This document shows, one piece after another, positions 4,661-35,605 of a DNA stretch of 37,272 nucleotides. The stretch spans positions 1 through 37,272 of the forward strand of contig JAFUDV010000057.1 in NCBI GenBank assembly GCA_017464245.1, read 5' to 3'. Numbering within the stretch: position 1 is the first letter of the stretch; the number at the start of each line of letters is the position of its first letter. A program made the translations under genes and the position numbers. Source of the DNA: Bacteroidales bacterium. GTDB lineage: Bacteria; Bacteroidota; Bacteroidia; Bacteroidales; UBA932. The notes beneath the pieces were generated by a model, which made no database searches, was not told the origin of the DNA, and saw only the letters and a program-made list of their open reading frames with translations.

Positions 4661-6425
4661 TCCCTCTTACATGATTCCCACTTCCGCGAAGGAAGTGCAG
4701 GCGCTCGGATGGGACTACATCGATGTCATCATCCTGAGCGGGGACGCGTTCGTGGACCATCCCTCCTTCGGGACGGCGGTGATCGCCCGCTGGCTCCAGA
4801 AATGGGGGTACCGGGTAGCCGTGGTCCCGCAGCCCAACTGGCGGGACGACCTCCGCGATTTCCGGAAACTGGGGGCGCCCCGGCTCTATTTCGGGGTGAA
4901 TGCAGGAGCCATGGACTCCATGGTGAACCACTACACGGCCTCCAAGCGGTTGCGCCATGACGACGCCTACACGCCCGACGGCCGCGCCGGCGCCCGTCCG
5001 GACTACGCCGTCACCGTCTATACGCAGATCCTGAAGGAACTCTATCCCGACGTCCCCGTCATCATCGGCGGCATCGAGGCCTCGCTCCGCCGCCTGACGC
5101 ACTACGACTACTGGAAAGACTGCCTCATGCCTTCCGTCCTCGTGACTTCCGGGGCCGACTACCTGTGCTACGGCATGGGGGAGCGCCCGATGCTCGCGCT
5201 CACGAAAGGTATCGAGAACGGATGGAACCGTCACCGGATGGAGGCGATCCCGCAGATTGCCGTCTATAAGACCGGGGCCTGGAAGGAGAAGGAAGGCGTT
5301 CTGGTGCTGCACAGTTTCGAGGAATGCCAGAAGGACAAGTTCAAGTTCGCGGAGAATTTCCATTGGATCGAGACACACGCGAACATGATGCATCCCGATA
5401 CGATCATCGAACCGGTAGGGGAGGGATACGTGCAGATCAATCCGCCGTATCCGACGGCGACGACAGGGGAGATGGATTCCTTCTGGGACCTCCCGTTCAC
5501 GAAGCTGCCGCATCCCCGGTACAAGGGACACCGGATTCCGGCCTACGACATGATCAAGTTCTCGGTCAATACGCACCGGGGCTGCTTCGGAGGCTGCAAC
5601 TTCTGCACGATCGCCGCGCATCAGGGGAAATTCATTTCCTCGCGCAGCGAGTCGTCCATCCTCAAGGAGGTCCGGGAGCTGAACAAATTGCCGGATTTCG
5701 CCGGCAACATCTCCGACGTGGGGGCGCCGACGGCGAACATGTACGGGATGCACGGGAAGAACCAGGAGATCTGCGCGAAATGCCGCCGCCGCTCCTGCCT
5801 GTTCCCGGCCCGCTGCCCCAACCTGGACTGCGACCATACGCGCCTCCGGGACCTATACCACAAGATCGACTCTACGAAAGGCATCCGCCATTCCTATATC
5901 GGAAGCGGCATCCGCTACGACCTTTTCCTGACGGAGGACGGGTTCGTGGATGACAGCTCCAAGCCTTATCTCCGGGAACTGGTCCTGGACCATACGTCCG
6001 GCCGCCTGAAGGTGGCGCCGGAGCATACCGAGGACCATGTCCTCCAGAAGATGGGCAAACCTTCCTTCCGGCTGTTCGAGCGCCTGCGGAAGGAGTTCGA
6101 CCAGGTGAACCGGGAAGCGGGGACGCACGTCGGACTCGTCCCTTACTTCATCTCGTCCCATCCGGGCTGCACGCTGAAAGACATGCAGCGGCTCGCCTCG
6201 CATCCGGCCCTGAAGGGAATCTGGATGGACCAGGTGCAGGATTTCACGCCGACGCCCATGACGACCTCTTCCGTGATGTTCTGGTCCGGGTATGACCCGC
6301 GGGACCTCAAACCGGTGTTCACGGAGCGGGATATGGTCCGCAAAAGGGAGCAGAAAGCGTTTTTCTTCAAAAATTCCTCAAAAAAAACGGGACAGGGTAT
6401 TTCCAATTCCAAAAAAAGACATTAA
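4653..6425 (+). CDS. ygiQ: YgiQ-family radical SAM protein
   Basis: This is a radical SAM enzyme of the YgiQ (UPF0313) family; its substrate is not established. The protein is 590 residues. The N-terminal part (about 10-290) has the YgiQ signatures SGDAFVDHPSFG and IIGGIEASLRRLTHYDYW. The 4Fe-4S/SAM motif CFGGCNFC gives Cys311, Cys315 and Cys318, and a further cysteine cluster (CAKCRRRSC onward, near 375-390) may bind another metal centre. The GTG start at 4653 overlaps the dpp4 stop by 8 bases; an in-frame ATG at 4671 is an alternative, but the GTG start keeps the N-terminal length usual for the family. The C-terminal tail is Lys/Ser-rich and encoded by A8 and A7 runs, and its stop codon overlaps the -7 box of the next promoter. 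Confidence 0.92.
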   Translation: MSDPSYMIPTSAKEVQALGWDYIDVIILSGDAFVDHPSFGTAVIARWLQKWGYRVAVVPQPNWRDDLRDFRKLGAPRLYFGVNAGAMDSMVNHYTASKRLRHDDAYTPDGRAGARPDYAVTVYTQILKELYPDVPVIIGGIEASLRRLTHYDYWKDCLMPSVLVTSGADYLCYGMGERPMLALTKGIENGWNRHRMEAIPQIAVYKTGAWKEKEGVLVLHSFEECQKDKFKFAENFHWIETHANMMHPDTIIEPVGEGYVQINPPYPTATTGEMDSFWDLPFTKLPHPRYKGHRIPAYDMIKFSVNTHRGCFGGCNFCTIAAHQGKFISSRSESSILKEVRELNKLPDFAGNISDVGAPTANMYGMHGKNQEICAKCRRRSCLFPARCPNLDCDHTRLRDLYHKIDSTKGIRHSYIGSGIRYDLFLTEDGFVDDSSKPYLRELVLDHTSGRLKVAPEHTEDHVLQKMGKPSFRLFERLRKEFDQVNREAGTHVGLVPYFISSHPGCTLKDMQRLASHPALKGIWMDQVQDFTPTPMTTSSVMFWSGYDPRDLKPVFTERDMVRKREQKAFFFKNSSKKTGQGISNSKKRH

Positions 6426-18542: not shown

Positions 18543-18550
18543 TATATTTG
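18543..18550 (+). promoter_or_regulatory. -7 promoter box of the stress-signalling gene cluster
   Basis: TATATTTG is a perfect TAnnTTTG box, 13 bases after the rhamnosidase stop and 20 bases before the ATG at 18571. It is preceded by a T6 run. No good -33 element stands at the right distance (TCGT at best), so an activator may be needed. This is the only recognisable promoter for the seven-gene cluster that follows. Confidence 0.6.
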
Positions 18551-18570: not shown

Positions 18571-20649
18571 ATGCACGTGAACGATTTTCCCATATCGACT
18601 CCCGCGATGGTGGTGTGGTTCCTCTGCCTCACCGTCGCGGTGGTCTTTTTCATCCGTCTTCTGAACTACCTTCTCCGGAAGGGTCGCCGGGGATGGATGG
18701 GAGGCATTTTCGGGCTCCTCCTGGTCCTGGGAACGGCTGTCCATGTGGTGATGCTGTCCCGGTCGTCCCATACGGTGACGGACGGAAACTGGATCCAGCT
18801 GGTCCTGACCTCCCTGGTCGCGGGGTTCGAGATGTTCGTAGGCCATACCGTGGTGTTCGACGACATCATCGCCGCGGTCGTCTTCCGGTCTCCGGGCCTG
18901 CTGATGGCCTACCTGACCGTTTTCGCCTTTGTCCTCGCTTTCTCCGTCGCGATGGTCTTCCAGATCCTTCCGCGCCGTCTGCGGGACCGTTTCTGGCTCC
19001 GTATCCATGCCCCTTCCGCCTCCGCCGACCGCAAGAACCATGTTTTCCTGGGCCTCAGCCGCAGTGCGAAGCTCCTGGCGAAATCCATCCTGAAGGACTG
19101 GGCCCGGGAGGAGGACCGGTCGGACCAGGGCTCCCTGATCTTCGTGGACCTGCCGGATACGGAAGGCGTCCATGCGGAGATCTCCCTCGGCGACATCCTC
19201 ACCAACCTGGTAAGCCGCCGGAAGGAGGTGGGTCTCGACGAGGAACTGGAAACGGACCGTTTCGTCCTCCTCAAGGGCCATCGGCCCGTTCCCGGAAGGG
19301 ATGAGGACCTCGCGGACGCCGTCGGGCTGGCCCGCCTGCGTCCCTGGCTCCGGAACCCGCGGACCAGCGTCTATCTCCTGCTGGACGACGAGGAGGAGAA
19401 CCGCCTCATGGTGCGGTACCTTTTCCGGGATCCGGACGTACAGGCCAAGGTGTTCTGCCGGGTGGACCGCATGGACGGTTTCAACTCCCTCTATACCGTC
19501 ACGCAGAACCGTCTGAACCTGGTGGACTTCCATTACCTGTCCGTCCAGGACCTGAAGTTCGGGCGGCCGGAACTCCATCCGGTCCGTTTCGTGGACGTCG
19601 CCCGGGACGGGAAGGGGCAGCCGCTCGGCTATGTGGACGGGGAGTTCCACGCCCTGCTCGTCGGTTTCGACACGACAGGGCAGGAAGCGATGCGGTTCCT
19701 GTACGAGTTCGGCTCGTTCGTGGGACCGGACAACCGGCGCATCCCGACGTCTTTCAATGTGTTCGGGAGCGGGCTCGGGGTCGCCAAGGGCGATTTCCTG
19801 AACCGTTTCCCGGGGCTGCGGGACGATCCGGCCATCATCTGGAACGGCGAGCCCGTGGGCTCCGACGGCTTCTGGCGGAGATGCGAGGCGCTCATGGACG
19901 GCCTGAACTATGTGCTCATCGCCCATGGCTCGGCGCAGCAGAACATCGAACTGTCCATCCTCCTGCTACAACTGGCGGCGCGGCGCAGCAAGGACTTGTC
20001 CCGCTTCGTCATCCTGGTGCGGGTGGACGTGGAGGACGACCGCCTGCAGGACCTGCTCGGTTTCTACAACCGGACCTATCATCCCGGCGGACAGCCGGTC
20101 ATCCGTCCCTTCGGCATGTCCGAGGCGGTATGGACCCTTCCCTCCATTACCGGAAAGGACCTCAAGGACCAGGCTTCCCGTTTCTACGATGCCAGCCAGC
20201 GGTCCATGGGCGGGTCCGGCGACTGGGAATCCCGGCGGAAGGAACTCCTGAACGAACCGGGTGACCGCCTGCGGAACCGGATGGCGCTTCACCGGATGCA
20301 GGGGCAGGACCTGTCCCGTTCCGCTTTCATCCCCACGATGCTGTGGCTTGCCGGAGAGAGGGGCCGGAAGGCGGCGGAAGGGATTCCGCTGGTTTATGAC
20401 GGGGTGCATTATCCCGGAAAAGGGGCCGTGGCCGACACCCTGGAACATCTGGCGGCCCAGGAACACCTGCGCAGCAACGGTTTCCACCTGGTCTGCGGAT
20501 ATGTCTCGGGCGAGCTGGACGAACTGCTGCGGCGGGTCCCTGACCTGAAAGATTATGACGAGGAGGACGATCCTCGGAAACAACATGCCGACTGGGTGGT
20601 CGTCCGGACCGCCCTCGCCGGTGATAATACGGACCATACCGATGAGTGA
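18571..20649 (+). CDS. Membrane protein with two Rossmann-like segments and a RyR-like C-terminus; function unknown
   Basis: This protein has 692 residues and no confident family. Four hydrophobic helices are visible near 11-35, 42-63, 74-96 and 108-133. A large cytoplasmic part follows. Residues about 156-172 (NHVFLGLSRSAKLLAKSI) and 357-375 (FHALLVGFDTTGQEAMRF) both look like the first beta-alpha turn of Rossmann/RCK-type domains, as in TrkA or in the paired gating domains of CASTOR-like channels. No potassium selectivity filter (TVGYG) is seen. The C-terminus has QEHLRSNGFHLVCGY (about 629-643) and RKQHADWVVV near 675, which resemble the EHxRW...GW and KxHPxLVP patterns of bacterial RyR domains. 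It heads a tight operon and may be its sensor. The domain readings are tentative. Confidence 0.75.
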   Translation: MHVNDFPISTPAMVVWFLCLTVAVVFFIRLLNYLLRKGRRGWMGGIFGLLLVLGTAVHVVMLSRSSHTVTDGNWIQLVLTSLVAGFEMFVGHTVVFDDIIAAVVFRSPGLLMAYLTVFAFVLAFSVAMVFQILPRRLRDRFWLRIHAPSASADRKNHVFLGLSRSAKLLAKSILKDWAREEDRSDQGSLIFVDLPDTEGVHAEISLGDILTNLVSRRKEVGLDEELETDRFVLLKGHRPVPGRDEDLADAVGLARLRPWLRNPRTSVYLLLDDEEENRLMVRYLFRDPDVQAKVFCRVDRMDGFNSLYTVTQNRLNLVDFHYLSVQDLKFGRPELHPVRFVDVARDGKGQPLGYVDGEFHALLVGFDTTGQEAMRFLYEFGSFVGPDNRRIPTSFNVFGSGLGVAKGDFLNRFPGLRDDPAIIWNGEPVGSDGFWRRCEALMDGLNYVLIAHGSAQQNIELSILLLQLAARRSKDLSRFVILVRVDVEDDRLQDLLGFYNRTYHPGGQPVIRPFGMSEAVWTLPSITGKDLKDQASRFYDASQRSMGGSGDWESRRKELLNEPGDRLRNRMALHRMQGQDLSRSAFIPTMLWLAGERGRKAAEGIPLVYDGVHYPGKGAVADTLEHLAAQEHLRSNGFHLVCGYVSGELDELLRRVPDLKDYDEEDDPRKQHADWVVVRTALAGDNTDHTDE

Positions 20650-21715
20650 AATGAAACTGGATCCCCATTCGGAGGCCATCCTCCGGGAATACCGGGAGCA
20701 GCTTCCCGTGTTCGGGAAACTGCAGGCGACGGTGCCTGAGCAGATCCGCTCCGTCTTCGCGGAGGCGGGCATCATCGTCGCATCCGTCGAGAGCCGGATC
20801 AAGACGGAGGACTCCCTGGCCGGCAAACTGGAGCTCAAGGGAGCGAAATACGCTTCCCTGAAGGATATCACCGACATCTTCGGCGTACGGATCATCACGT
20901 TCTACACTGATGACGTGGACAAGGTCGCCTCCGTGGTGGACCGCCTCTTCGACGTGGACTGGGAGAATTCGGTGGACAAGCGGAAGCTGCATGAAATCGA
21001 CAGTTTCGGCTACCTGTCCCTGCACTATATCTGCCGTGTCCCGGACTGCCCCTATCGTTTCGAGGTCCAGATGCGGACCATCCTCCAGCATGCCTGGGCC
21101 AACATGAACCACGACACGGGCTACAAGTCCGGCGTGGAGGTCCCGAAGGAGTACCTCCGGAACATGAACCGCCTCGCCGGAATGCTGGAACTGATCGACG
21201 AACAGTTCAGCCGCATCCGCACCGACATCAACGACTACCGGCGCAAGGTCCAGTCCCTGGTCGCTTCCGGTCATCTGGAAGAGGTCCCGCTGGACGGTGA
21301 CAGTTTCCGGAGTTACCTCAAGCTGGAGCCGTTCGACAAGCTGAACCGGCGGATCGCTTCCGTGAACCAGGCCGAGATCCAGGAGGTCACCCTGATGCCG
21401 TACCTGGCCATCCTGAAAGCCCTGGGATTCCAGACGCTCGGGGACGTGGACCAGCTCATCCTGAACTATTCCGAGGCCGCCTACCAGATCGCCTGCTACC
21501 AGATCAGCCTGACGGACCTGGACATCCTGGCCTCCTCCGTGGGGCCGCAGAACCTGTGTATCGCCTACCTGCTCAAGCAGGGAAGCGGCCGGGCCGGCAT
21601 CCGCCTGATGCTGGACACGCTCAACGGCCCGTCCGACAGCAATGACATGATGGCGGAATTCATCGTGGAACAGGCGAAGGACCTTTCCTTCATGCATACA
21701 AAAAACGAGATATGA
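20642..21715 (+). CDS. RelA/SpoT-domain pyrophosphokinase (small alarmone synthetase-like)
   Basis: This is a 357-residue protein with one RelA/SpoT nucleotidyltransferase domain and no HD, TGS or ACT domain. The ATG at 20642 overlaps the upstream stop by 8 bases. The synthetase signature is intact: TDIFGVRIITF (Asp78 equals Rel Asp264), GYLSLHYI (Tyr124) and FEVQMRTILQHAW (Glu141 equals Rel Glu323), ending in NHDTGYK. It should transfer pyrophosphate from ATP to a 3' hydroxyl, making (p)ppGpp or a related alarmone; toxic members of the wider family pyrophosphorylate tRNA or make (p)ppApp. Residues 170-357 are mostly helical and of no family I recognise. A separate HD hydrolase-like gene lies two genes downstream. 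The domain is certain; the product is not. Confidence 0.9.
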   Translation: MSEMKLDPHSEAILREYREQLPVFGKLQATVPEQIRSVFAEAGIIVASVESRIKTEDSLAGKLELKGAKYASLKDITDIFGVRIITFYTDDVDKVASVVDRLFDVDWENSVDKRKLHEIDSFGYLSLHYICRVPDCPYRFEVQMRTILQHAWANMNHDTGYKSGVEVPKEYLRNMNRLAGMLELIDEQFSRIRTDINDYRRKVQSLVASGHLEEVPLDGDSFRSYLKLEPFDKLNRRIASVNQAEIQEVTLMPYLAILKALGFQTLGDVDQLILNYSEAAYQIACYQISLTDLDILASSVGPQNLCIAYLLKQGSGRAGIRLMLDTLNGPSDSNDMMAEFIVEQAKDLSFMHTKNEI

Positions 21716-22356
21716 ATACCAAAGAAAGATTCCTGGTGACCGTGAACCGGGAACTGGGTTCCGGCGGCCGCACCGTCGGCCGGAAACTGGCAGAAAGGCT
21801 GGGTGTCCGATTCTATGACAAGGTCCAGCTTGAAGGCCTGGTGAAAGAATACGAGATGTCCGAGGAACAGATCGAGCTCCTCAAGGCCCGCAAGCGCAAT
21901 TGGTGGACTGAAATCTGCGACAAGATTTCCCGTGCGCCGGGGGCTGATTTCTATCGGCCCGACGAGAAGGGAATCCCGGAGCTGGTCACTTCCGACGACC
22001 TGTTCCGGTCGGAGAGCCGGATCCTCCGCGAGATTGCTGCCGAGGAGTCCTGCGTCGTCGCCGGGCGGGCTGCCTTCTTCGTCCTGAAGGCCCACCCCAA
22101 CAGTCTCCGGATCCTGATCCGGGCTTCCATGGCTTCCCGGATGGAACGGGTGATGCGGAAGCAGGGCCTGACCGAGGAGGCGGCCGCCTCCGTCATCGAG
22201 AAGGTGGATGCCGGCCGGGAGAACTACACGAAGAAGTTTGCGGGCGTGAGCCGGTATGACACCCGGAACTACGACCTGGTCCTCAACATGGACGGGCTCA
22301 CGGAGGACGATGCCGTGGACCTCATCATGCAATACATCGAACGCAGTGAAAAATAA
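21712..22356 (+). CDS. Cytidylate kinase-like family protein
   Basis: This is a 214-residue soluble protein of the cytidylate-kinase-like P-loop family (Cytidylate_kin2 type). The N-terminal motif VNRELGSGGRTVGRKLAERL (residues 11-30) is the family's modified P-loop. The next segment (GVRFYDKVQLEGLVKEY) resembles the FYDxxLI stretch following the P-loop in these proteins. CVVAGRAAFFVL near 118 and RILIRASMASRMERVM near 133 fit the later kinase core. It is not the housekeeping cmk, which has a GPSGSGKS-type loop and NMP-binding insert. The real substrate of this family is unknown. It overlaps the RelA/SpoT gene by 4 bases (ATGA) and the HD gene by 11 bases, so stoichiometric expression with both is expected. 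Confidence 0.87.
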   Translation: MNTKERFLVTVNRELGSGGRTVGRKLAERLGVRFYDKVQLEGLVKEYEMSEEQIELLKARKRNWWTEICDKISRAPGADFYRPDEKGIPELVTSDDLFRSESRILREIAAEESCVVAGRAAFFVLKAHPNSLRILIRASMASRMERVMRKQGLTEEAAASVIEKVDAGRENYTKKFAGVSRYDTRNYDLVLNMDGLTEDDAVDLIMQYIERSEK

Positions 22357-22918
22357 ACCGCTCGACACTGAACTGCTGGACCGTGCGATCGAATTCGCGG
22401 TCCGGGCCCATGCCGGGACCGAGCGCAGGGGCAAGGGATTCCCGTACATCGTCCATCCGATGGAGGCGATGGCCATCGTCGCCACGATGACCTCCGACCA
22501 GGAACTCCTCGCCGCTGCGGCCCTCCACGACGTGGTGGAGGATACGGACATCGGCCTCGACGAGATCCGGGCCCTGTTCGGGGACCGCGTTGCCGCCCTG
22601 GTGCAGACCGAGAGCGACCGCAAGGACGAAGCCCTGGACTGGCATGCCCGGAAGCAGGAGTCCCTGATGCGTCTTTCGGAGGCCTCCCGGGACGAGAAGG
22701 TCGTGGCCCTCGGGGACAAGCTTTCGAACATGCGCGCGATCGCCCGAGACTACACCACCCGGGGCGAGTCCTTCTGGGACATGTTCCGGGTCAAGGACAA
22801 GTCGGTCCATGGCTGGCGTTACCACGCCCTGGTGGAAGCGCTGTCCGAACTGAAGGATACGTATGCCTACCAGGAATTCGAGTTCCTGGTGAACCGGGTT
22901 TTCCCGACAGGAGAGTAG
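22346..22918 (+). CDS. HD-domain alarmone-hydrolase-like protein (SpoT/MESH1 type)
   Basis: This is a 190-residue stand-alone HD protein resembling the hydrolase domain of SpoT and the small hydrolase MESH1. The GTG start at 22346 lies within the end of the kinase-like gene (11-base overlap); no ATG is available before the conserved core. Metal and catalytic residues are intact: His22 in RAHAG, His37 in PYIVHPMEA, His61-Asp62 in LHDVVEDT with Glu65-Asp66, and Asp124 in ALGDKLSNMRA. The expected activity is manganese-dependent removal of the 3' pyrophosphate from (p)ppGpp or a similar nucleotide. Its presence close to a RelA/SpoT synthetase without HD domain suggests that the pair sets the level of one alarmone, or acts as toxin and neutralising enzyme. 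Confidence 0.88.
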   Translation: MKNKPLDTELLDRAIEFAVRAHAGTERRGKGFPYIVHPMEAMAIVATMTSDQELLAAAALHDVVEDTDIGLDEIRALFGDRVAALVQTESDRKDEALDWHARKQESLMRLSEASRDEKVVALGDKLSNMRAIARDYTTRGESFWDMFRVKDKSVHGWRYHALVEALSELKDTYAYQEFEFLVNRVFPTGE

Positions 22919-23767
22919 ATGATGGAGGAACTGAAGGCGATATCCGTCGACATGGCGGACTACGAGTATGCCGGGGAAGGCGCGAATGCCGTGAGCTACC
23001 ATCACCGGCGCGATCCCGATGTACTGCTCAAGTTGTATCAGCCCGGTAAGGTCCGGCAACCCCAGGACGAGGTCCTGATGGCCCGGAAAGTCTATGCGCT
23101 GGGGATCCCTACGCCCGAACCCGGGGACTACGTGACGGACGGGGAACGTTTCGGGATCCGCTTCCGCCGGATTCCGGACAAGGTTTCCGTGGCGCGGGCC
23201 GTCGGCCTCCATCCGGAGGAAGCCGTACCGCAGGCGGAGGCGTTCGCCGCCATGTGCCGTTCCCTCCATTCCGTCCATGTGGACCCTTCCGCTTTCGAGA
23301 GCGTCAAGTCGCGCTATCTGCGTCTGACGGAGGAGTCGCCCCTGTTCACCGCAGCGGAGAAGGACCGCCTCGTCCGCTTCATCGGCGATGCTCCCGATAC
23401 GGACACGGCCGTCCATGGAGACCTGCAGTTCGGGAACCTCATCTTCGACGGGAACGGCCGGTACTATTTCATCGACCTCGGCGATTTCGGTTACGGCTGT
23501 CCGCTCTTCGACGTGGCGATGGTCTATGTCACCGCCTATCTCAGCGACCCGGATTTCGTCCGGGAGGCCTTCCACATGGAGCCGGCGACGGCCGTCCGGT
23601 TCTGGGAAGCTTTCGCTTCCGCCTATTTCGGGAAGGACCGTCCGCTGTCTGCCATCGAGGAGGAGATCCGCCCCTATGCGGGCCTGAAGACCCTGATCGT
23701 GGAACGGGACATGGGTATCCGGATGCCCCGTTTCCGCGCCGCCTTGCAAACCGTCCTTCAACCTTAG
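22919..23767 (+). CDS. APH-fold phosphotransferase (aminoglycoside phosphotransferase/choline kinase-like)
   Basis: This 282-residue soluble protein has the protein-kinase-like fold of small-molecule phosphotransferases. The N-lobe has a glycine-rich start (YAGEGANAVSYHH) and a VLLKLYQPG strand holding the probable ATP-binding Lys. The catalytic loop is VHGDLQFGNLIF (about 164-175), and the metal-binding motif is YFIDLGDFGYG. It resembles the TIGR02172-type family whose substrate is unknown. Although the fold includes antibiotic-resistance enzymes, nothing here points to resistance; the position between an HD hydrolase and a SpoIIE phosphatase suggests that it phosphorylates a cell component or a partner protein. 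The ATG directly follows the upstream stop, with no spacer. Four bases separate it from the next gene. Confidence 0.85.
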   Translation: MMEELKAISVDMADYEYAGEGANAVSYHHRRDPDVLLKLYQPGKVRQPQDEVLMARKVYALGIPTPEPGDYVTDGERFGIRFRRIPDKVSVARAVGLHPEEAVPQAEAFAAMCRSLHSVHVDPSAFESVKSRYLRLTEESPLFTAAEKDRLVRFIGDAPDTDTAVHGDLQFGNLIFDGNGRYYFIDLGDFGYGCPLFDVAMVYVTAYLSDPDFVREAFHMEPATAVRFWEAFASAYFGKDRPLSAIEEEIRPYAGLKTLIVERDMGIRMPRFRAALQTVLQP

Positions 23768-23771
23768 CGAC

Positions 23772-25991
23772 ATGGCCAGGAAGAAACTCAACAAAGCCGC
23801 CGTCAACTACGTGCTGCAGAGCCTTGCGCTGATCATCATCTCGATGGTCACCCTGGAAGGGACGTCCCTGATCCAGTTCTTCTACTCCCGCGATATGATG
23901 CAGGAGGAGGCCACCCTTCGTGCCCAGGGACGGATCACGACGACCAACATGCAGATCACCAGCGTCATGGACCAGGTGGAAACGGCCTTGAACAACAACC
24001 TTTGGTCGGTCCATACCCTGCTTTCCAATCCGGACAGCCTGTGGTCGCTGACCCACCGGATCGTGGAAAACAACGACTTCATCTCCGGATCGGCCATCGC
24101 CTTCGCCGAAAACTTTTTCCCGAGGACGGGCCGCCTGTTCTCCCCCTATTCGTTCCGACGCGGGGACCAGATCGACAGCACCCAGCTGGGTACCGAATCC
24201 TACAATTACCTCGAGAAAGAATGGTTTACCGCGCCGATGGAATCGGGGGAGGGGTACTGGTCCGAACCTTATTTCGACACTGGCGGAGGCGAGATGCTGA
24301 TGACGACTTTCAGCGAGCCGGTCCGGGACGGGGAAGGGAACATCTTTGCCATCCTGACCGCCGACGTTTCCCTGAAGTGGCTCACGGACCTGGTCGGGAA
24401 GGTGGAGGAATACCCCGGCGCTTTCAGCATGCTCATCAGCCGGAGCGGGAAACTCATGGTCAGCCCTGCCCCCGCCTTCGTGATGAAGAGCACGGCGCAG
24501 GAGATCACGGCCACCCTGGAGGACACGACCGCCGTATCGGTCGCCCGCGCGATGCTGGCTGGACTGAGCGGCAGCGCCACCGTCATGTACAAGGGTGAGA
24601 AGGAGATGGTGTGCTACGCCCCGATCGAGCGGACCGGCTGGTCGATGGCCGTCATCATCCCCGAGGACGACATCTACGGAAGCATCCGGAAGGTGAACGG
24701 CTTCGTCCGGGTACTCCAGTTCATCGGCCTTCTGCTGCTGGCCTTCATCCTGTACCTGACCGCCCGGAACCAGATGAAACTGAGGGATGTGTCCGAGAAG
24801 AAAAGCCGGATCGACAACGAACTCCACATTGCCCGCGACATCCAGATGTCCATGTTGCCCAAGACCTTCCCGCCCTACCCGGAACGGCAGGACCTCGAGA
24901 TGTACGGGACCATCATCCCCGCGAAGGAGGTGAGCGGCGACCTGTACGACTTCCACATCCAGGGCGACAAGTTGTATTTCTGCATCGGGGATGTGAGCGG
25001 AAAGGGCATTCCCGCCTCCCTCGTCATGGCAACGACCCGGAGCCTGTTCCGGACCACTTCGGCCCATGGGGAAAGTCCGGAACGCATCGTCACCTCGATG
25101 AATGATTCCATGGCGGAGGGGAATGAGCGCAACATGTTCGTGACCTTCTTCGTGGGCGTGCTGAACTTGAAGGACGGCCGCCTCCATTACTGCAATGCCG
25201 GCCATAACGCACCCGTGCTGGTATGCCCCGGCATGCCGGCCCGCCTGCTGAAAGTGGAGCCCAACCTGCCGCTGGGCGTTGTGCCCGGATTCCGCTACCG
25301 CGGACAGGAGACTTCCATCGCCCTGGGTGAGTCCCTGTTCCTGTACACGGACGGTCTCACGGAGGCCGAAGACGGAGGCCATGTCCTGTTCGGCGAAGAT
25401 CATTTGCTGCGGACGGTGACCTGCGAGGCCTCGGATTCGGCGGAAGAGTTGGTCAAGGGGATGGTGAAGGCCGTCCGGCTGCATGTGGGAGAGGCGGCCC
25501 AGAGCGATGACCTGACGATGCTTGTGATCCGGTATGTCCGGGCTTCCGGAGCCGTCTCCGGCGTCCGGCGCCTGGAACTGAGGAACGATATCCGCGAAAT
25601 TCCTCTCCTCGCCGATTTTGTAAAAGGGATCGCCGCCGACGCCGGTTTGGACGAGGCGACGGCCATGAACTTGAACCTGGCGCTGGAAGAAGCGGTCTCC
25701 AACGTCATGCTGTACGCCTACCCGAAGGATTCGGAGGGAACGGTGGAACTTGAAGCCGGCATCCGGGAGGACCGGATCGATTTCACGGTCATGGACGGCG
25801 GAAGCCCCTTCGACCCGATGCAGGCATCCAGTCCGGACCTGTCCATGAGGGCGGAAGACCGTCCCATCGGAGGGCTTGGCATCTATCTTGTGAAGAAGAT
25901 CATGGACTCCGTGTCCTATTCCCGCGAGAACGGGAAGAATATCCTGTCAATGACAAAAAAACGATCAGCAAATGGAAATCCACATCACTGA
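23772..25991 (+). CDS. Membrane sensor with dCache, SpoIIE PP2C phosphatase and RsbW-like HATPase domains
   Basis: This 739-residue protein joins signal input and both enzymes of a partner switch. A first membrane helix (about 13-37) and a second (about 313-332) flank an extracytoplasmic dCache-like sensor domain of about 270 residues. The SpoIIE/PP2C phosphatase follows: AREIQ-like helix HIARDIQMSMLP, VSGDLYDF, GDVSGKGIPASL (about 406) and SDDLTMLVI, with the metal-binding aspartates in place. The last 140 residues are a GHKL ATPase like RsbW/SpoIIAB: LALEEAVSNVMLYAYP (N box), VMDGGSPFDP and GGLGIYLVKK. So one chain may both phosphorylate and dephosphorylate a STAS partner, and such a gene overlaps its 3' end by 20 bases. 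Ligand unknown. Confidence 0.92.
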   Translation: MARKKLNKAAVNYVLQSLALIIISMVTLEGTSLIQFFYSRDMMQEEATLRAQGRITTTNMQITSVMDQVETALNNNLWSVHTLLSNPDSLWSLTHRIVENNDFISGSAIAFAENFFPRTGRLFSPYSFRRGDQIDSTQLGTESYNYLEKEWFTAPMESGEGYWSEPYFDTGGGEMLMTTFSEPVRDGEGNIFAILTADVSLKWLTDLVGKVEEYPGAFSMLISRSGKLMVSPAPAFVMKSTAQEITATLEDTTAVSVARAMLAGLSGSATVMYKGEKEMVCYAPIERTGWSMAVIIPEDDIYGSIRKVNGFVRVLQFIGLLLLAFILYLTARNQMKLRDVSEKKSRIDNELHIARDIQMSMLPKTFPPYPERQDLEMYGTIIPAKEVSGDLYDFHIQGDKLYFCIGDVSGKGIPASLVMATTRSLFRTTSAHGESPERIVTSMNDSMAEGNERNMFVTFFVGVLNLKDGRLHYCNAGHNAPVLVCPGMPARLLKVEPNLPLGVVPGFRYRGQETSIALGESLFLYTDGLTEAEDGGHVLFGEDHLLRTVTCEASDSAEELVKGMVKAVRLHVGEAAQSDDLTMLVIRYVRASGAVSGVRRLELRNDIREIPLLADFVKGIAADAGLDEATAMNLNLALEEAVSNVMLYAYPKDSEGTVELEAGIREDRIDFTVMDGGSPFDPMQASSPDLSMRAEDRPIGGLGIYLVKKIMDSVSYSRENGKNILSMTKKRSANGNPHH

Positions 25992-26274
25992 AACTGAAGG
26001 AACCCTGACGGCCCGTTTTGCCGGCCGTCTTGACACGCCGGCGGCCGCTGACGTGATGCATGAAGTCCAGCCCCTCCTGGACGGCGCCGACAAGACCATC
26101 GTCCTGGACTGCCAGGACATGACCTATATCTCCAGTTCCGGCCTCCGCATTTTCCTGACCATCCGGAAAGCGGCTGCGGCCAAGGGCGGGAAGGTCATCA
26201 TCCAGGGCCTTTCCAACGATATCCGCCAGGTCTTCATGATGACCGGTTTTCTCCAGCTCTTCGAGATCCGGTAG
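25972..26274 (+). CDS. STAS-domain anti-sigma-factor antagonist-like protein
   Basis: This is a 100-residue single STAS domain, like SpoIIAA/RsbV. It starts MEIHITETEG, and the phosphorylation loop reads YISSSGLRIFL; Ser56 aligns with the phosphorylated Ser58 of SpoIIAA, with Ser54 in place of the usual Asp. The start lies 20 bases inside the SpoIIE-HATPase gene, so the two are translationally coupled and very probably act together: the HATPase phosphorylates it and the PP2C domain removes the phosphate. No sigma factor of the SigB type is visible in the window, and such factors are not typical of Bacteroidota, so the output target is unknown. Three bases separate it from tex. Confidence 0.9.
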   Translation: MEIHITETEGTLTARFAGRLDTPAAADVMHEVQPLLDGADKTIVLDCQDMTYISSSGLRIFLTIRKAAAAKGGKVIIQGLSNDIRQVFMMTGFLQLFEIR

Positions 26275-26277
26275 CCT

Positions 26278-28416
26278 GTGAAAGAAATCTACATCAAGCA
26301 CATTTCCGGCCTCCTGAACGTGAAGGACTGGCAGGTGGAAAACTGTGCGGAACTCTTCGCTGAGGGCTGCACGGTCCCCTTCATCAGTCGTTACCGCAAG
26401 GAGCGTACCGGCGGCCTTTCCGATGTGGAAGTGGCTGAGATCAAGCATTGGACCGAGGTCTTCACGGAGATGGAGAAGCGCAAGGCTTCCATCCTCGCAA
26501 CCATCGCCGAGCAGGGGAAACTGACGCCCCAGCTGCAGAAAGCGATCGAAGACTGCGTGGAATCCGGCATCCTGGAGGACCTTTACCTTCCGTACCGTCC
26601 CAAGCGGAAAACGCGGGCGACAGTCGCGGTCGCAAAGGGGCTTGAACCCCTTGCCGACCTGCTGTGGAACGGCAAGTCCCGCCGTCCGGAGGCCGATGCC
26701 GCACCTTATGTGAAAGGGGAGGTCGCTTCCGTGGAGGATGCCCTGGCCGGTGCGCGGGACATCATTGCGGAGCGCCTGTCGGAGACGGCCCGTGTGCGGG
26801 AGAACCTCCGGAGCGTGTTCCGGACCCGCCGGGTACAGTCCAAGGCGACGAAAGCGGCGGAGAAGGATCCGGCAGCGGCGAAGTACCGTACCTACTTCAA
26901 TTATTCAACGCCGGTTTCCAAGATTCCTTCCTACGCGCTCCTGGCCATGCTGCGTGCGGAGAACGAAGGTTTCCTCCGTCTTTCCATCGATGCCGACGCG
27001 GAAAAGTGCGGCAACAAGATCTACTACGACTTCTGCCAGGAAAAGGGATATCCCGCTCCTGAAGCGGGCCGGGAAATCCGGACCGCCGTGGATGATGCCT
27101 ATAAGCGTCTGCTGGAACCCTCCATCACCGGGGAAGTGCTCCGGGAAGCCAAGCGCAAGGCCGATGCCGACTCCATCCGGGTGTTCGGGGAGAATCTTCG
27201 GCAGCTTCTGCTGGCCGCACCGGTGGGGCAGAAGCGGACGATGGCCATCGACCCGGGATTCCGGACCGGCTGCAAAGTCGTGTGCCTGGACGCTCACGGG
27301 AATCTGCTGGACCATACGGTCATCTTCCCGCATCCGCCGGCCGCCAAGAAGGTGCAGGCCATCATGACAGTGGCCGGCCTTGTGGAAAAATACGGAATCG
27401 AAGTGGTCGCCATCGGCAATGGAACGGCCGGTCGCGAGACGGAGGAATTCATCCGGAAAGTGGGCCTGGACGAGCGTGTACGCATCTTTTCCGTCAGCGA
27501 GGACGGCGCCTCGGTCTATTCGGCCTCCGACGTCGGCCGGGAAGAGTTCCCGGATCAGGACGTGACGGTGCGCGGGGCTGTTTCCATCGGCCGCCGGCTG
27601 ATGGACCCGCTCTCGGAACTGGTGAAGATCGACCCGAAGTCCCTGGGTGTTGGCCAGTATCAGCACGACGTGGACCAGTCGCTCCTGAAGGAGCAGCTGG
27701 ACAATACGGTGGAAAGCTGTGTGAACAACGTGGGCGTGAACCTGAATACGGCGAGTCCCTATCTGCTCCGTTATGTGTCCGGCATCGGCCCTGTCCTGGC
27801 CGGCAACATCATCGAACACCGCACCCGGGTGGGCGGATTCAAGACCCGTGAACAACTCCTGGACGTGCCCCGGCTGGGAGCGAAGGCGTTCCAGCAGTGC
27901 GCGGGCTTCCTTCGGATCCCGGATGCGGAGAACCCCCTGGACGGCAGTGCCGTGCATCCGGAAGCCTACCATATCGTGGACCGGATGGCGAAGGACCTGC
28001 ACGTCTCCACCCGCGAACTGGTCGGGAATGCGGACTTGTGCCGGAGCATCAAGGCACAGGACTACGTGGAGGGCGATTTCGGCCTCCCGACGGTGAACGA
28101 CATCCTCCAGGAACTGGCGAAGCCCGGCCTGGATCCGCGCGAATCGGCCCAGGAATTTTCCTTTGCCGACGACATCCATGAGATCGAAGATCTCAAGGAG
28201 GGGATGGAACTTCCCGGCATCGTCACGAACCTGACGGCCTTCGGCGCCTTCGTGGACATCGGCCTGCATGAGAACGGCCTCATCCACGCTTCCCGGATGG
28301 GCGTGAAGGGCATGGCCGACCCTTCCCGGATCCTCAAGCTCCACCAGACTGTGAAAGTGCAGGTGGTTTCCGTGGACCTGGACCGCAAGCGTATCGGGCT
28401 GAAACTGATCAAGTAA
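26278..28416 (+). CDS. tex: Tex-family S1 RNA-binding transcription accessory protein
   Basis: This is a 712-residue cytoplasmic RNA-binding protein of the Tex family. The N-terminus is typical (CTVPFISRYRKERTGGLSD, about 30-49). The YqgF/RNase H-like domain begins near 318 (TMAIDPGFRTGCKVV), tandem helix-hairpin-helix motifs lie around 490-560 (YVSGIGPVLAGNIIEHR, LLDVPRLGAKAFQQ), and a C-terminal S1 domain occupies about 640-712 (GIVTNLTAFGAFVDIGLHEN). The domain order and length match the family. GTG is the start, three bases after the STAS stop. Tex is widespread and usually a housekeeping gene, so its place here may be chance or may give the stress cluster an output at the transcription level. 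The family call is secure. Confidence 0.95.
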   Translation: MKEIYIKHISGLLNVKDWQVENCAELFAEGCTVPFISRYRKERTGGLSDVEVAEIKHWTEVFTEMEKRKASILATIAEQGKLTPQLQKAIEDCVESGILEDLYLPYRPKRKTRATVAVAKGLEPLADLLWNGKSRRPEADAAPYVKGEVASVEDALAGARDIIAERLSETARVRENLRSVFRTRRVQSKATKAAEKDPAAAKYRTYFNYSTPVSKIPSYALLAMLRAENEGFLRLSIDADAEKCGNKIYYDFCQEKGYPAPEAGREIRTAVDDAYKRLLEPSITGEVLREAKRKADADSIRVFGENLRQLLLAAPVGQKRTMAIDPGFRTGCKVVCLDAHGNLLDHTVIFPHPPAAKKVQAIMTVAGLVEKYGIEVVAIGNGTAGRETEEFIRKVGLDERVRIFSVSEDGASVYSASDVGREEFPDQDVTVRGAVSIGRRLMDPLSELVKIDPKSLGVGQYQHDVDQSLLKEQLDNTVESCVNNVGVNLNTASPYLLRYVSGIGPVLAGNIIEHRTRVGGFKTREQLLDVPRLGAKAFQQCAGFLRIPDAENPLDGSAVHPEAYHIVDRMAKDLHVSTRELVGNADLCRSIKAQDYVEGDFGLPTVNDILQELAKPGLDPRESAQEFSFADDIHEIEDLKEGMELPGIVTNLTAFGAFVDIGLHENGLIHASRMGVKGMADPSRILKLHQTVKVQVVSVDLDRKRIGLKLIK

Positions 28417-32106: not shown

Positions 32107-33372
32107 TTACCGGATGACGATCTCGGAACGGTCCGGGCCCACGGAGATGATCTTCACGGGACAGCCGGTCTCGCGTTCGATGAAATCGACATAGTTCTTG
32201 AAAGCGACAGGGAAGTCCTCGTACCGGCGGACCTTCGTGATATCCTCCTTCCAGCCCGGGAAGTCGGTATAGACCGGCTTGACGTCGTCCGTGCATTCGA
32301 ACGGGAAATCCTTCGTGACCTTTCCGTCGATCTCGTAGGCCGTGGCGACACGGACCGTGTCGAAGCCGTTCATCACGTCGGCCTTCATCATGATGAGCTC
32401 GCTGACGCCATTCATCATCACGGCGTATTTCAGGGCCACAAGGTCCAGCCAGCCGCAGCGGCGGGGCCGTCCGGTCGTAGCGCCGTACTCGCGTCCGATC
32501 TGGCGGAGACGTTCCCCGTCGGCATCGAACAGTTCGGTGGGGAAGGGACCGCTGCCCACGCGGGTGCAGTAGGCCTTGAAGATACCCATCACCTTGCCCA
32601 CGCGGTTCGGGGCCACGCCCAGTCCGGTGCACACGCCGGCCGTCATCGTGTTGGAGGAGGTGACGAACGGATAGGTGCCGAAGTCGATGTCCAGCATCGC
32701 GCCCTGCGCACCCTCCGCGAGGATGGGAACGTTCTCGTCCAGGTAGCGGTTCACGGCGAACTCGCTGTCGATGAAGGTGAAGCGCTTCATGCTTTCCACG
32801 GCGTTGAACCACTTGACCTCGTAGTCGGTGATGTCAAAGGGGAACTTGTACTGGGCAAGAAGTCCGAAGTGCTTGTATTTCAAGGCTTCGTAGCGCTGGA
32901 GGAACTCGGGGGAGAGGATGTCGCCCACGCGGAGCCCGTTCCGGCCGGTCTTGTCCATGTAGGTGGGGCCGATGCCCTTGAGGGTGGAGCCGATCTTTCC
33001 CTTGCCCTTGGAGGCCTCGGACGCCGCGTCGAGCATCCGGTGGGTCGGGAGGATCAGGTGCGCCTTCTTGGAGATCAGCAGTTTCCCGGAGATGTCCACG
33101 CCCTTGGCCTCGATGGCCTCGATCTCATCCTTGAGGATGACCGGGTCGATGACCACGCCGTTGCCGATGATGTTCACTGAATCCGGACGGAAGATGCCGG
33201 AAGGAACCGTGTGCAGCACGAAACCGTCCCCGTCGAAGACGAGGGAGTGACCGGCGTTGGGACCGCCCTGGAAGCGGGCAATCACCTTGTAGTCCGGGGT
33301 CAGTACGTCAACCACCTTGCCTTTGCCCTCGTCGCCCCACTGCAGGCCGAGGACCACGTCTACCTTGCTCAT
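32107..33372 (-). CDS. purA: Adenylosuccinate synthase
   Basis: PurA joins IMP and aspartate with GTP to make adenylosuccinate, the first step from IMP to AMP, in the cytoplasm. The protein is 421 residues, usual for the family. The P-loop-like signature [15 protein letters not shown] is at 8-22, and [10 protein letters not shown] follows. Further conserved parts are [39 protein letters not shown] and the [14 protein letters not shown] active-site segment near 290. The ATG overlaps the purB stop by 4 bases (ATGA on the minus strand). With purB and purC it forms an operon for three steps of purine synthesis; GTP dependence makes it sensitive to (p)ppGpp in many bacteria. Confidence 0.97.
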
Positions 33373-34664
33373 AATATGCCAGTTCGTTTGAAGATATAAT
33401 CCACGTTCTTGAAATAGTAATCCAGGGTGAAGCAGCCTTCCAGCTCATCGACGGTGAGGAGCTTCATCACGGCGTCGCTTTCCTTGAGGAGGGTGCGGTA
33501 GTCCAGGCCTTCGGTCCAGGCCTTCATGGCGATGGGCTGGACGGTGTCGTAGGCCTGTTCGCGGGTGAGTCCCTTGCCGATGAGTGCGTTCATCACGCGT
33601 TGGGCGAAGATGACGCCCCGGGTGCGCCAGATGTTCGCCATCATGTTCTCCGGATACACCGTCAGGTTCTCGAGGATGCCCTTGAAGCGGCACAGCATGT
33701 AGTCCAGGAGTTCCGTGGCGTCCGGCAGGATGATGCGCTCCGTGGAGGAGTGGGAGATGTCCCGCTCGTGCCACAGGGCCACGTTCTCGCAGGAGGCGGA
33801 CATGTAGCCGCGCATCACGCGGGCGCAGCCGCAGATGTTCTCGCTGGAGATGGGGTTGCGCTTGTGCGGCATGGCGGAGGAACCCTTCTGGCCCTTGCCG
33901 AAAGCCTCTTCGGCCTCGCGGACCTCGGTCCGCTGGAGGTTCCGTACCTCGAAGGCCATCTGCTCCAGGGTGGAGGCGATGACGGCGAGGGTGGCGATGT
34001 AGTAGGCATGGCGGTCCCGCTGGAGAACCTGCGTGGAGATATCGGCGGAGGCGATCCCCAGCTTGTCGCACACATAGTCCTGGATGAACGGCGGGATGTT
34101 GGCGAAATTGCCCACGGCGCCGCTCATCTTGCCGGCTTCGACGCCCTTGCGGGCGAACTGGAAGCGCTCGATGTTACGCTTCATCTCCTCATGCCACAGG
34201 GCCCATTTCAGGCCGAAGGACGTGATGTCGGCGTGGATGCCGTGCGTACGGCCGATGCAGGGGGTTTCCTTGAATTCGAGGGCGCGGCGCTTCAGTACCG
34301 CGAGGAACTCTTCCAGGTCCTTCTCCAGGATCGCGTTGGCCTGCTTGATCAGATAGCCGTTGGCCGTGTCCACCACGTCGGTGGAGGTGAGCCCGTAATG
34401 GACCCACTTCCGTTCCGGACCGAGGCTTTCGCTGACGGCGCGGGTGAAGGCCACGACATCGTGGCGGGTGACCTGCTCGATCTCCTGGATGCGGGCCACG
34501 TCGAACGTCGCGCCAGCGCGGATCTTCTCCACGTCCTCGCGCGGGATGACGCCGAGCTCGCTCCAGGCTTCGCAGGAGAGGGTTTCGACTTCGAGGTAGG
34601 CCTGGAACTTGTTCTGCTCGGTCCAGATGTCCCTCATCACCTTGCGGGAGTAGCGCTCGATCAT
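33369..34664 (-). CDS. purB: Adenylosuccinate lyase
   Basis: PurB removes fumarate from SAICAR and from adenylosuccinate, serving both the IMP and the AMP branches. I chose the ATG at 34664, which gives 431 residues starting [10 protein letters not shown], as in the family; the open frame upstream is only overlap with purC. Signatures include [11 protein letters not shown], the [13 protein letters not shown] segment, the [15 protein letters not shown] active-site histidine region, and the flexible signature loop [16 protein letters not shown]. The start overlaps the purC stop by 4 bases (ATGA), and the stop overlaps the purA start in the same way, so the three genes are translationally coupled. 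Length and motifs are ordinary for a bacterial PurB. Confidence 0.97.
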
Positions 34665-35605
34665 ATCTTCTTCAGGAAGTCTTCGATGTTCTTTCCGATG
34701 CGGGCGGCGAGGTCTTCGTCGGCGGCCTTCTCGAAGGGCACGCCGGTAATGTGCTCGTAGAGCTCGATGTAGCGGTCGGTGATGCCGGAAATGACCTGCT
34801 CCGTCATCTCGGGAACCTGCTGGCCTTCCTGGCCCTGGAACCCGTTCGCCATCAGCCACTCGCGGACGAACTCCTTGGAGAGCTGCTTCTGGTGCTCGCC
34901 GCGGGCGAGGCGCTCCTCATAGCCGTCGGCATAGAAATACCGGGAGGAGTCGGGGGTGTGGATCTCGTCCATCAGGAGGATCTCGCCATCCCGCTTGCCG
35001 AACTCGTATTTGGTGTCCACGAGGATGAGTCCCTTCTCGGCGGCCATCTCGGTCCCTCTCCGGAAGAGGGCGCGGGTGTAGGCCTCGAGCTTCTCGTAAT
35101 CCTCCTTTCCGACGATGCCGCGGGCGATGATCTCTTCCTTGGAGATATCCTCGTCGTGGCCTTCGTCGGCCTTCGTGGTCGGGGTGATGATGGGCTCGGG
35201 GAAGCGTTGGTTCTCCACCATCCCGTCGGGGAGGGGAACGCCGCAGAGCGTGCGCTTGCCGGCCTTGTATTCACGCCAGGCGTGTCCGGTCAGGTAGCCG
35301 CGGATGACCATTTCCACCTTGAACGGTTCGCACCGCCAGCCGATGGTGGCCATCGGGTCCACCTCGGCGATCTTCCAGTTGGGGATGATGTCGGCGGTGG
35401 CGTCGAGGAAACGGGAGGCAATCTGGTTGAGGACCTGCCCCTTGTAGGGAATGCCCTTGGGGAGGACTACGTCGAAGGCGGAGATGCGGTCGGTGGCGAC
35501 CATGATGAGGACATTGGAACCGATGCTGTACACATCGCGGACCTTGCCGGTGTACTTGGACACTTGGCCGGGGAATTGGAAATCGGTACGGACTAGAGCT
35601 TTCAT
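34661..35605 (-). CDS. purC: Phosphoribosylaminoimidazolesuccinocarboxamide (SAICAR) synthase
   Basis: PurC joins aspartate to CAIR with ATP in purine synthesis, giving SAICAR, the substrate of the next gene's product PurB. The ATG at 35605 ([11 protein letters not shown]) is preferred; an upstream ATG at 35650 would extend the protein across the predicted promoter. The protein has 314 residues, longer than the E. coli enzyme (237) and close to the longer class with a C-terminal extension. Signatures: [54 protein letters not shown] and TPDSSRYF (all within about 20-245). It leads the purC-purB-purA-glycosyltransferase operon and faces a divergent glycosyltransferase gene. Confidence 0.96.

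Follow-up and report, generated by a model that had tools for sequence, protein, structure and literature searches.

A recurrent Bacteroidales operon in which a membrane-sensing partner switch accompanies, and may control, a small alarmone synthetase and hydrolase

The stretch of DNA analysed here, hereafter the window, comprises 37,272 nucleotides of a Bacteroidales genome (contig JAFUDV010000057.1 of assembly GCA_017464245.1, the assembly being 2.37 Mb in 97 contigs and 85% complete) and carries on its + strand, between positions 18571 and 26274, a run of seven closely packed genes, g1 to g7. Five of these form a conserved unit, namely g2, encoding a small alarmone synthetase (SAS), g4, encoding a stand-alone HD hydrolase (HD), g5, encoding an APH-fold kinase, g6, encoding a dCache-SpoIIE-HATPase sensor, and g7, encoding a STAS protein. 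On the strength of sequence comparisons, and with a probability that we put at about 0.55, this core would be an operon in which a membrane-sensing partner switch has the alarmone synthetase/hydrolase pair as its output, the STAS protein binding the SAS.

The recurrence of the unit was assessed by searches with g2 at several taxonomic depths. Among 199 genomes of the window's family 46 had a match. In 40 of these it is full-length or nearly so (in the window itself and, at 51-71% identity, in 39 further genomes), in G478 it is a fragment at a contig edge (62%), and in five it is weak; an operon-type SAS is thus present in 41 genomes, in one as a fragment. A full-length-type SAS was likewise found in 6 of 295 genomes of the order, spread over four other families, and the operon in at least five Bacteroidales families. 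Among 395 genomes of the phylum, the window's own apart, there were distant SASs only (25 genomes), and the 14 such hits that were fetched had no operon partners alongside. A scan of 84,980 species genomes returned at least 553 SAS relatives, and the 80 kept come without exception from records titled Bacteroidales, Bacteroidia, Bacteroidaceae or Prevotellaceae; the names of ruminant hosts or organs appear in many of them. In the neighbourhood search that the original prediction had proposed, the exact seven-gene set was found together only in close relatives, but for the five-gene core such a limitation is ruled out by the family and order counts.

Removal of ten duplicates from 126 loci left 116 distinct operon-type SAS loci, and partners were scored within 7 kb of the SAS at the 96 of these with at least 5.5 kb of downstream sequence. 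HD was present at 92, SpoIIE and HATPase each at 90, STAS at 88 and APH at 86. The original prediction had taken all seven genes for a single system; this is ruled out, since the kinase encoded by g3 (CMK2) accompanies 13 of the 96 loci and g1 only 2, leaving g1 and g3 as add-ons. The 97 loci away from contig edges show 33 arrangements, the commonest being SAS-HD-APH-SpoIIE-STAS (32 loci) and the same set with a K+/H+ antiporter (13), while in others SpoIIE-antiporter-STAS or SpoIIE-STAS lies ahead of the SAS. A few of the 33 are artefacts (for example L227 and L241) of the codon-score script used to call open reading frames (ORFs) in the relatives, which had been tuned on GC-rich loci, misplaced some starts, broke some genes and called few ORFs in AT-rich loci; because of these weaknesses the controls were repeated as six-frame searches. 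Six loci encode an HD-APH fusion (L113, L114, L116, L119, L242 and L243, by profile, with Pfam confirming L113). Since gene order varies and such fusions occur, inertia alone does not account for the linkage, and the expectation that synthetase, stand-alone hydrolase and SpoIIE/HATPase/STAS switch belong together is borne out as a recurrent unit of many Bacteroidales. One genus of the family has six loci at which the HATPase resides not in SpoIIE but in a separate protein of ~430 amino acids, identified by Pfam in L113 as YegS/DAGK-like lipid kinase. An RsbW-like HATPase detached from SpoIIE, either as a small protein or, in L113, as this lipid-kinase fusion, was noted in L113-L119, L120, L112, L242 and L243.

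The unit may also be dispersed. Each of six genomes whose SAS locus is without SpoIIE and STAS (L202, L204, L216, G484, G425 and G101) has a SpoIIE match elsewhere, and a STAS gene, with or apart from the remote SpoIIE, was seen in five of them, STAS not having been sought in the L216 genome. The remote loci comprise SpoIIE-STAS-antiporter in G425, G484 and also G478, APH-SpoIIE-STAS in the L202 genome, SpoIIE-STAS in G101, a HATPase-STAS pair with a separate SpoIIE in the L204 genome, and SpoIIE and HATPase in the L216 genome. At L121 STAS follows directly on SAS, the HATPase and SpoIIE of that genome lying on another contig.

The linkage is specific to one clade of synthetases. A tree built from 34 operon SASs and 24 lone ones, several of the latter on long branches, unites the operon enzymes in a single clade (100/100), and none of 24 SAS loci outside it (19 from Bacteroidota genomes, L246, two viral contigs and two plasmids) has HD, APH, SpoIIE or STAS when the profiles used for the operon loci are applied in all six frames to stretches of 7-20 kb. 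Within the family the SpoIIE-HATPase query is matched in all 41 SAS-bearing genomes as opposed to 39 of the 158 others. In a test on 40 genomes a SpoIIE match below 1e-40 together with a single-domain STAS protein occurred in 22 of 22 genomes with the SAS and in 1 of 18 without, the latter having been picked by hand (15 from the same genus plus three).

We take g2 (20642-21715) to begin at the ATG at 20642, the automated ORF list beginning instead at an upstream ATG at 20555. Its product is a long SAS matching PF04607 (2.1e-19; 70.3 bits against a cut-off of 27) as its sole family, with no HD, TGS or ACT domain, and consists of an N-terminal catalytic domain (residues ~10-200) and a conserved, mostly helical C-terminal domain (~210-352). 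Residues R52, K54, D78, G81, R83, G123-Y124-x-S-L-H128, E141, Q143, R145, H157, Y161 and K162 are invariant in 38 aligned rows, and the catalytic positions align with those of solved SASs; over the 116 loci the fixed motif patterns matched 71 (R.K), 106, 115, 104 and 116. Against the Protein Data Bank (PDB) the g2 profile finds small GTP pyrophosphokinases at 3e-16 to 4e-14 and CapRel at 0.006, FaRel2 not being among the matches at E 0.01. The AlphaFold model (mean predicted local distance difference test score, pLDDT, 85.7; predicted template-modelling score 0.61; loop 121-123 under 50) has as its best Foldseek match B. subtilis SAS1 with pppGpp, with SAS2 also matched and CapRel lower in the list; its C-terminal domain (210-352), confidently modelled, is identified by none of the best 50 of 302 matches, which are SAS/Rel-type enzymes. 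These comparisons make g2 a probable (p)ppGpp-type synthetase. It resembles the RelP/RelQ-type SASs (YwaC, YjbM) in catalytic domain, motifs and predicted fold, but adds the conserved helical domain of ~150 residues outside the profile matches and is frequently in the company of switch genes. Two longer RelA/SpoT frames are present elsewhere in the source genome, so that the g2 enzyme is additional to the usual ones; for Bacteroidia, the part of a 2011 survey of RelA/SpoT homologues drawn on here gives Rel and RshB, with one to three homologues per genome in eight genomes (PMC3153485).

The product of g4 (22346-22918; PF13328 3.9e-18) is, to judge from its sequence, a stand-alone HD protein of the Mesh1 or small alarmone hydrolase (SAH) type with metal and substrate motifs intact. 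It matches the solved SAHs 4yf1, 7qoc, 3nr1 and 5vxa, and among g4-type proteins the GDKLSNMR-type motif is kept in 102 of 103, HD..ED in 101 of 103 and the RRGKGxPY..H-type motif in 103 of 107. It shares with Mesh1 and the SAHs these HD, ED and GDKLSNMR-type motifs, but differs in its operon context and in being fused, in six relatives, to an APH kinase.

The components of the switch keep their main motifs as well. g6 (23772-25991) combines in one chain a dCache/PDC sensor (PF22673 1.1e-28, PF02743 1.1e-19), which would be periplasmic, a SpoIIE phosphatase of the PP2C type (PF07228 1.2e-50) and an RsbW-like HATPase (PF13581 3.7e-28), and its PDB matches include RsbW (6m36, 1.6e-11), SpoIIE (3t91) and Rv1364c (3ke6). 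In 72 proteins of 690-800 amino acids the SpoIIE motifs GDVSGKG and YTDGxxEA and the HATPase N box and GGLG are invariably present, D.G.PFDP is found in 64, and GDxYD and SDDxT in 62, the search range being fixed. g7 (25972-26274) is a single-domain STAS protein (PF01740 2.5e-17; TIGR00377 above cut-off), whose Ser55 aligns with the serine of SpoIIAA and RsbV, in SpoIIAA the phosphoacceptor. This position is kept in all 95 single-domain STAS proteins near a SAS, as YISSSGL in 83, YTSSQGL in 11 and YISSTGL in one. For g2 to g7 the domain identities read from the sequence by the original prediction agree with Pfam and NCBIfam (RelA_SpoT, Cytidylate_kin2, HD_4, APH, dCache with SpoIIE and HATPase_c_2, and STAS).

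How could these elements work together? The dCache domain of g6 would sense a periplasmic signal, and the SpoIIE phosphatase and HATPase kinase of the same chain would set the phosphorylation of Ser55 in g7, one form of which might then bind g2, perhaps via the C-terminal helical domain, altering its activity in one direction or the other. The g4 hydrolase would remove the product of g2, and the HD-coupled kinase g5 could tune or modify that product. A contact between STAS and SAS is suggested, though only suggested, by correlations of pairwise distances over the 73 loci that have all five genes, calculated as Pearson and Spearman coefficients with and without the three most divergent loci. 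In all four settings STAS is the best correlate of SAS (Pearson 0.65 and Spearman 0.42; 0.56 and 0.32 without the divergent loci), ahead also of HATPase and APH, whereas HD, the immediate neighbour of SAS, correlates with it less (0.35, 0.25, 0.36 and 0.22). Seen from the other side, the best Pearson correlate of STAS is SAS.

Several observations weigh against so direct a coupling. By Spearman coefficient STAS correlates best with APH (0.47 as against 0.42 for SAS), and without the three divergent loci with APH (0.38) and HD (0.35) ahead of SAS (0.32); moreover, shared ancestry confounds every one of these correlations. The SAS stands by itself at L202 and is accompanied by HD only at L204 and L244. 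Related lone SASs carry an extension of similar length, so that the C-terminal domain of g2 is no proof of STAS binding. SpoIIE-STAS modules also exist without a nearby SAS, beside NMT1-like binding proteins or genes resembling those for nonribosomal peptide synthetases (NRPSs), such that this family of switches does not need an alarmone output. Finally, an antiporter, assigned by Pfam on L088 to the CPA family with TrkA_C, lies near 32 of the 96 loci and follows STAS even where the SAS is elsewhere (G425, G484 and G478); the switch could consequently act on the antiporter.

These last points bear on an explanation that we consider rather unlikely, in which the operon is co-regulated but the switch acts on the K+/H+ antiporter, or on some component of transcription or secretion, and the SAS/HD pair answers the same stress in parallel without directly contacting STAS. 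The existence of SAS-less modules, the frequency of the antiporter and its retention with SpoIIE-STAS at the split loci speak for this explanation, as does the tightness of the 20 STAS-antiporter junctions (median -1 bp). No antiporter is found, however, within 7 kb at 64 of the 96 loci, and neither the match to the SpoIIE query in every SAS-bearing genome of the family nor the closeness of SAS distances to those of STAS sits easily with a parallel branch. A quite different account, improbable in our estimate, is that g2 is a toxic SAS acting on tRNA or adenosine nucleotides, with g4 as its antitoxin and the switch genes as later riders. A SAS beside an SAH is indeed the arrangement of faRel-aTfaRel, a known pair (PMC11782079, in the part of that paper relied on here). 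Some lone relatives of g2 occur in phage records and in a phage-like plasmid, and in PADLOC the synthetase domain of g2 matches the candidate defence family PDC-S33 (1.1e-13), g3 matches a viperin-kinase model (9e-7) and the other five proteins match nothing; both the mobile relatives and the PDC-S33 match make a toxic origin possible and count against the partner-switch reading. Yet in profile and in fold g2 is nearest to small GTP pyrophosphokinases and to B. subtilis SAS1 and SAS2, the match to the toxic CapRel being marginal; HD is hardly more constant a member than SpoIIE, STAS or HATPase; and L115, L163, L166 and L172 have SAS, SpoIIE and STAS with no HD in the stretch, while at L202 and L121 six-frame searches find no HD either (it may be elsewhere in these genomes). 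The unit differs from faRel-aTfaRel in the marginal CapRel match, in that its SAS sometimes occurs without a nearby HD and in the presence of partner-switch genes. Searches of plasmids and phages matched 49 and 19 records, respectively, but no SAS above 60% identity, and, judged on the seven proteins themselves, the defence role entertained by the original prediction has little support beyond the PDC-S33 and viperin-kinase matches.

A further alternative, which we regard as more improbable still, is that the unit makes a different nucleotide signal, in that the APH-fold kinase and CMK2 modify what the SAS produces, a response to which would come from g1 or the antiporter. APH is a frequent member, six HD+APH fusions and 13 occurrences of CMK2 are on record, and ion-transport or RCK-like partners (CPA with TrkA_C, g1) could be the responders; on the other hand, APH is missing from L084, L093 and L195 on six-frame search, and we know of no substrate for either the APH-fold or the CMK2 kinase.

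The partner-switch reading has known counterparts. SiaA of P. aeruginosa is a SpoIIE-type phosphatase, and the NCBIfam model for SiaA gives a sub-threshold match to g6 (6.3e-9). According to the part of PMC8457831 that we use here, partner switches control diguanylate cyclases in Pseudomonas and Sinorhizobium (SiaC-SiaD, HsbA-HsbD and BgrV-BgrR), and in SiaABCD, as proposed here, a kinase and a STAS-like protein, by its phosphorylation state, set the activity of an enzyme synthesising a nucleotide second messenger. Our best reading by analogy is that the SAS/HD operon would work in the manner of SiaC-SiaD and HsbA-HsbD, its output being an alarmone in place of cyclic di-GMP. It differs from SiaABCD, whose output is a GGDEF diguanylate cyclase and whose SiaC is a DUF1987 protein (same portion of PMC8457831), in having a classical PF01740 STAS protein, in usually combining phosphatase and kinase in a single polypeptide, and in the addition of a hydrolase and a kinase to the operon; no GGDEF domain was found among ten window proteins scanned around the cluster. 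With the RsbU-RsbV-RsbW and SpoIIE-SpoIIAA-SpoIIAB modules the operon shares the SpoIIE/PP2C phosphatase, the RsbW-like HATPase and a STAS protein with conserved serine, but its switch is fused to a dCache sensor and alarmone enzymes are present in the operon; no sigma factor gene is found among the recurrent operon members, the flanks not having been scanned exhaustively.

The novelty originally claimed, that of a SpoIIE/STAS switch on nucleotide alarm enzymes outside the Gram-positive sigma-B pathways, must be narrowed accordingly: since partner switches acting on diguanylate cyclases are known, only the alarmone output is new, that is, an alarmone enzyme class as the probable output of a switch of which the action on a nucleotide-signal enzyme has precedent. 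A full-text search of the literature, judged on titles and abstract openings and with many subscription papers outside its reach, returned no description of alarmone enzymes coupled to a STAS/SpoIIE switch, and a review of stand-alone STAS proteins, in the part of it considered, does not mention ppGpp or SpoT (PMC8256260). The operon could then tentatively be regarded, at somewhat less than even odds, as the first alarmone-output partner switch, in which a sensor of periplasmic ligands directly sets a dedicated (p)ppGpp-type synthetase by STAS phosphorylation, with its own hydrolase and HD-coupled kinase, a ribosome-independent external trigger and, in many species, a tie to K+/H+ antiport. 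The usual view of alarmone synthesis is that it answers amino-acid starvation at the ribosome or follows when small synthetases are induced at the transcriptional level. Should the switch control the SAS/HD pair, an external ligand could directly determine the alarmone level in rumen and gut bacteria, and the naturally occurring variants (HD-APH fusions, split loci and the minimal SAS-STAS) are suited to the study of how STAS proteins choose enzymatic targets.

The organisation of the locus is that of a compact transcription unit. As originally described, the seven genes follow each other in the same orientation with overlaps of 8, 4 and 11 nt, an abutting junction of 0 nt, a gap of 4 nt and an overlap of 20 nt from g1 to g7, and across the relatives the medians of the core junctions range from -4 to +4 bp. 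The promoter element noted ahead of the cluster is likewise in place: the sequence TATATTTG (18543-18550, + strand), which begins 28 nt before the ATG of g1, conforms to TAnnTTTG, which we take to be the Bacteroidales -7 box. Of the 41 operons whose upstream neighbour is divergent, 40 have this motif within the 140 bp preceding the start codon, mostly at a distance of 24-40 nt, whereas shuffling gives an expectation of 2.7.

Of the accessory genes, g1 (18571-20649) has probable N-terminal transmembrane helices, TrkA_N-like Rossmann repeats and an RyR-like C-terminus, as judged by inspection and from distant homologues. The Rossmann/RyR-like assignment draws on these homologues, six of which were scanned, with RyR above cut-off in L071 (1.8e-6) and TrkA_N below cut-off in L075, L076, L077 and L079 (best 3.5e-4, in L079), but g1 itself matches no Pfam family, even at E 5, and its AlphaFold model, built on a two-sequence alignment, is unusable (pLDDT 39). 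Over all 116 loci g1 is near the operon (within 8 kb) only in the window and in L161. Ten distant homologues elsewhere in the order (L071-L080), with no operon genes in the stretch, share the Rossmann and RyR-like architecture, for which no Pfam family of its own was found. The other accessory gene, g3 (21712-22356; PF13189 1.3e-45), encodes a cytidylate-kinase-like P-loop kinase. In L160, L162 and L192, near relatives of the window, the operon opens with SAS, 41 bp after a gene of 858 amino acids and without g1 and g3, whereas both are present in L161, such that even the window's small clade varies in its possession of g1 and g3, which are optional additions to the core operon. Within the core, the g5 product (22919-23767; PF01636 1.9e-19) is a TIGR02172-like APH-fold phosphotransferase that scores 212.9 bits with that model, under the cut-off of 228.2.

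SpoIIE-STAS modules were met in other surroundings too. In the source genome itself a second SpoIIE-STAS pair lies upstream of a stretch (L247, contig C27, 9603-17569) that encodes a borderline Alginate_exp-like protein and an NRPS of 2,226 amino acids (AMP-binding, Condensation, reductase), and genes of 2,394-2,542 amino acids, their domains not scanned, adjoin SpoIIE-STAS in L252-L255 and L277. A gene for an NMT1/THI5-like binding protein (so labelled by Pfam on L166 and L248 and by similar sequence elsewhere) stands directly before SpoIIE in the SAS-less L248, L249, L250, L271-L275, L278, L279, L281-L284 and L286, and also in the SAS operons L115 and L166, which suggests that it is a ligand-binding partner of the sensor.

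An origin of the unit on mobile elements was considered and rejected, there being no close match in plasmids or phages, and the four distant mobile relatives fetched, two viral contigs (SASs 35% and 28% identical to g2) and two plasmids, lacking operon partners. One Bacteroides finegoldii plasmid (L269) carries at 5025-6098 a lone long SAS, annotated as (p)ppGpp synthetase and 40.5% identical to residues 1-209 of g2, among phage capsid, portal and terminase genes.

Downstream of the conserved unit and outside it, a gene for a Tex-like RNA-binding protein (26278-28416, + strand) begins 3 bp after g7 and is followed after 12 bp by a GH97 gene, the tight run thus continuing past g7, so that 26274 is not an evident operon end and the Tex gene is perhaps cotranscribed with g1 to g7. 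A gene of about the size of Tex follows the operon in L160, L161, L162 and L192, and different genes do so at other loci. Some 5.8 kb after g7, on the - strand (32107-35605 of the window), adenylosuccinate synthetase, adenylosuccinate lyase and SAICAR synthetase are encoded. Alarmones are known to target enzymes of purine metabolism, but this neighbourhood may simply reflect synteny within the lineage.

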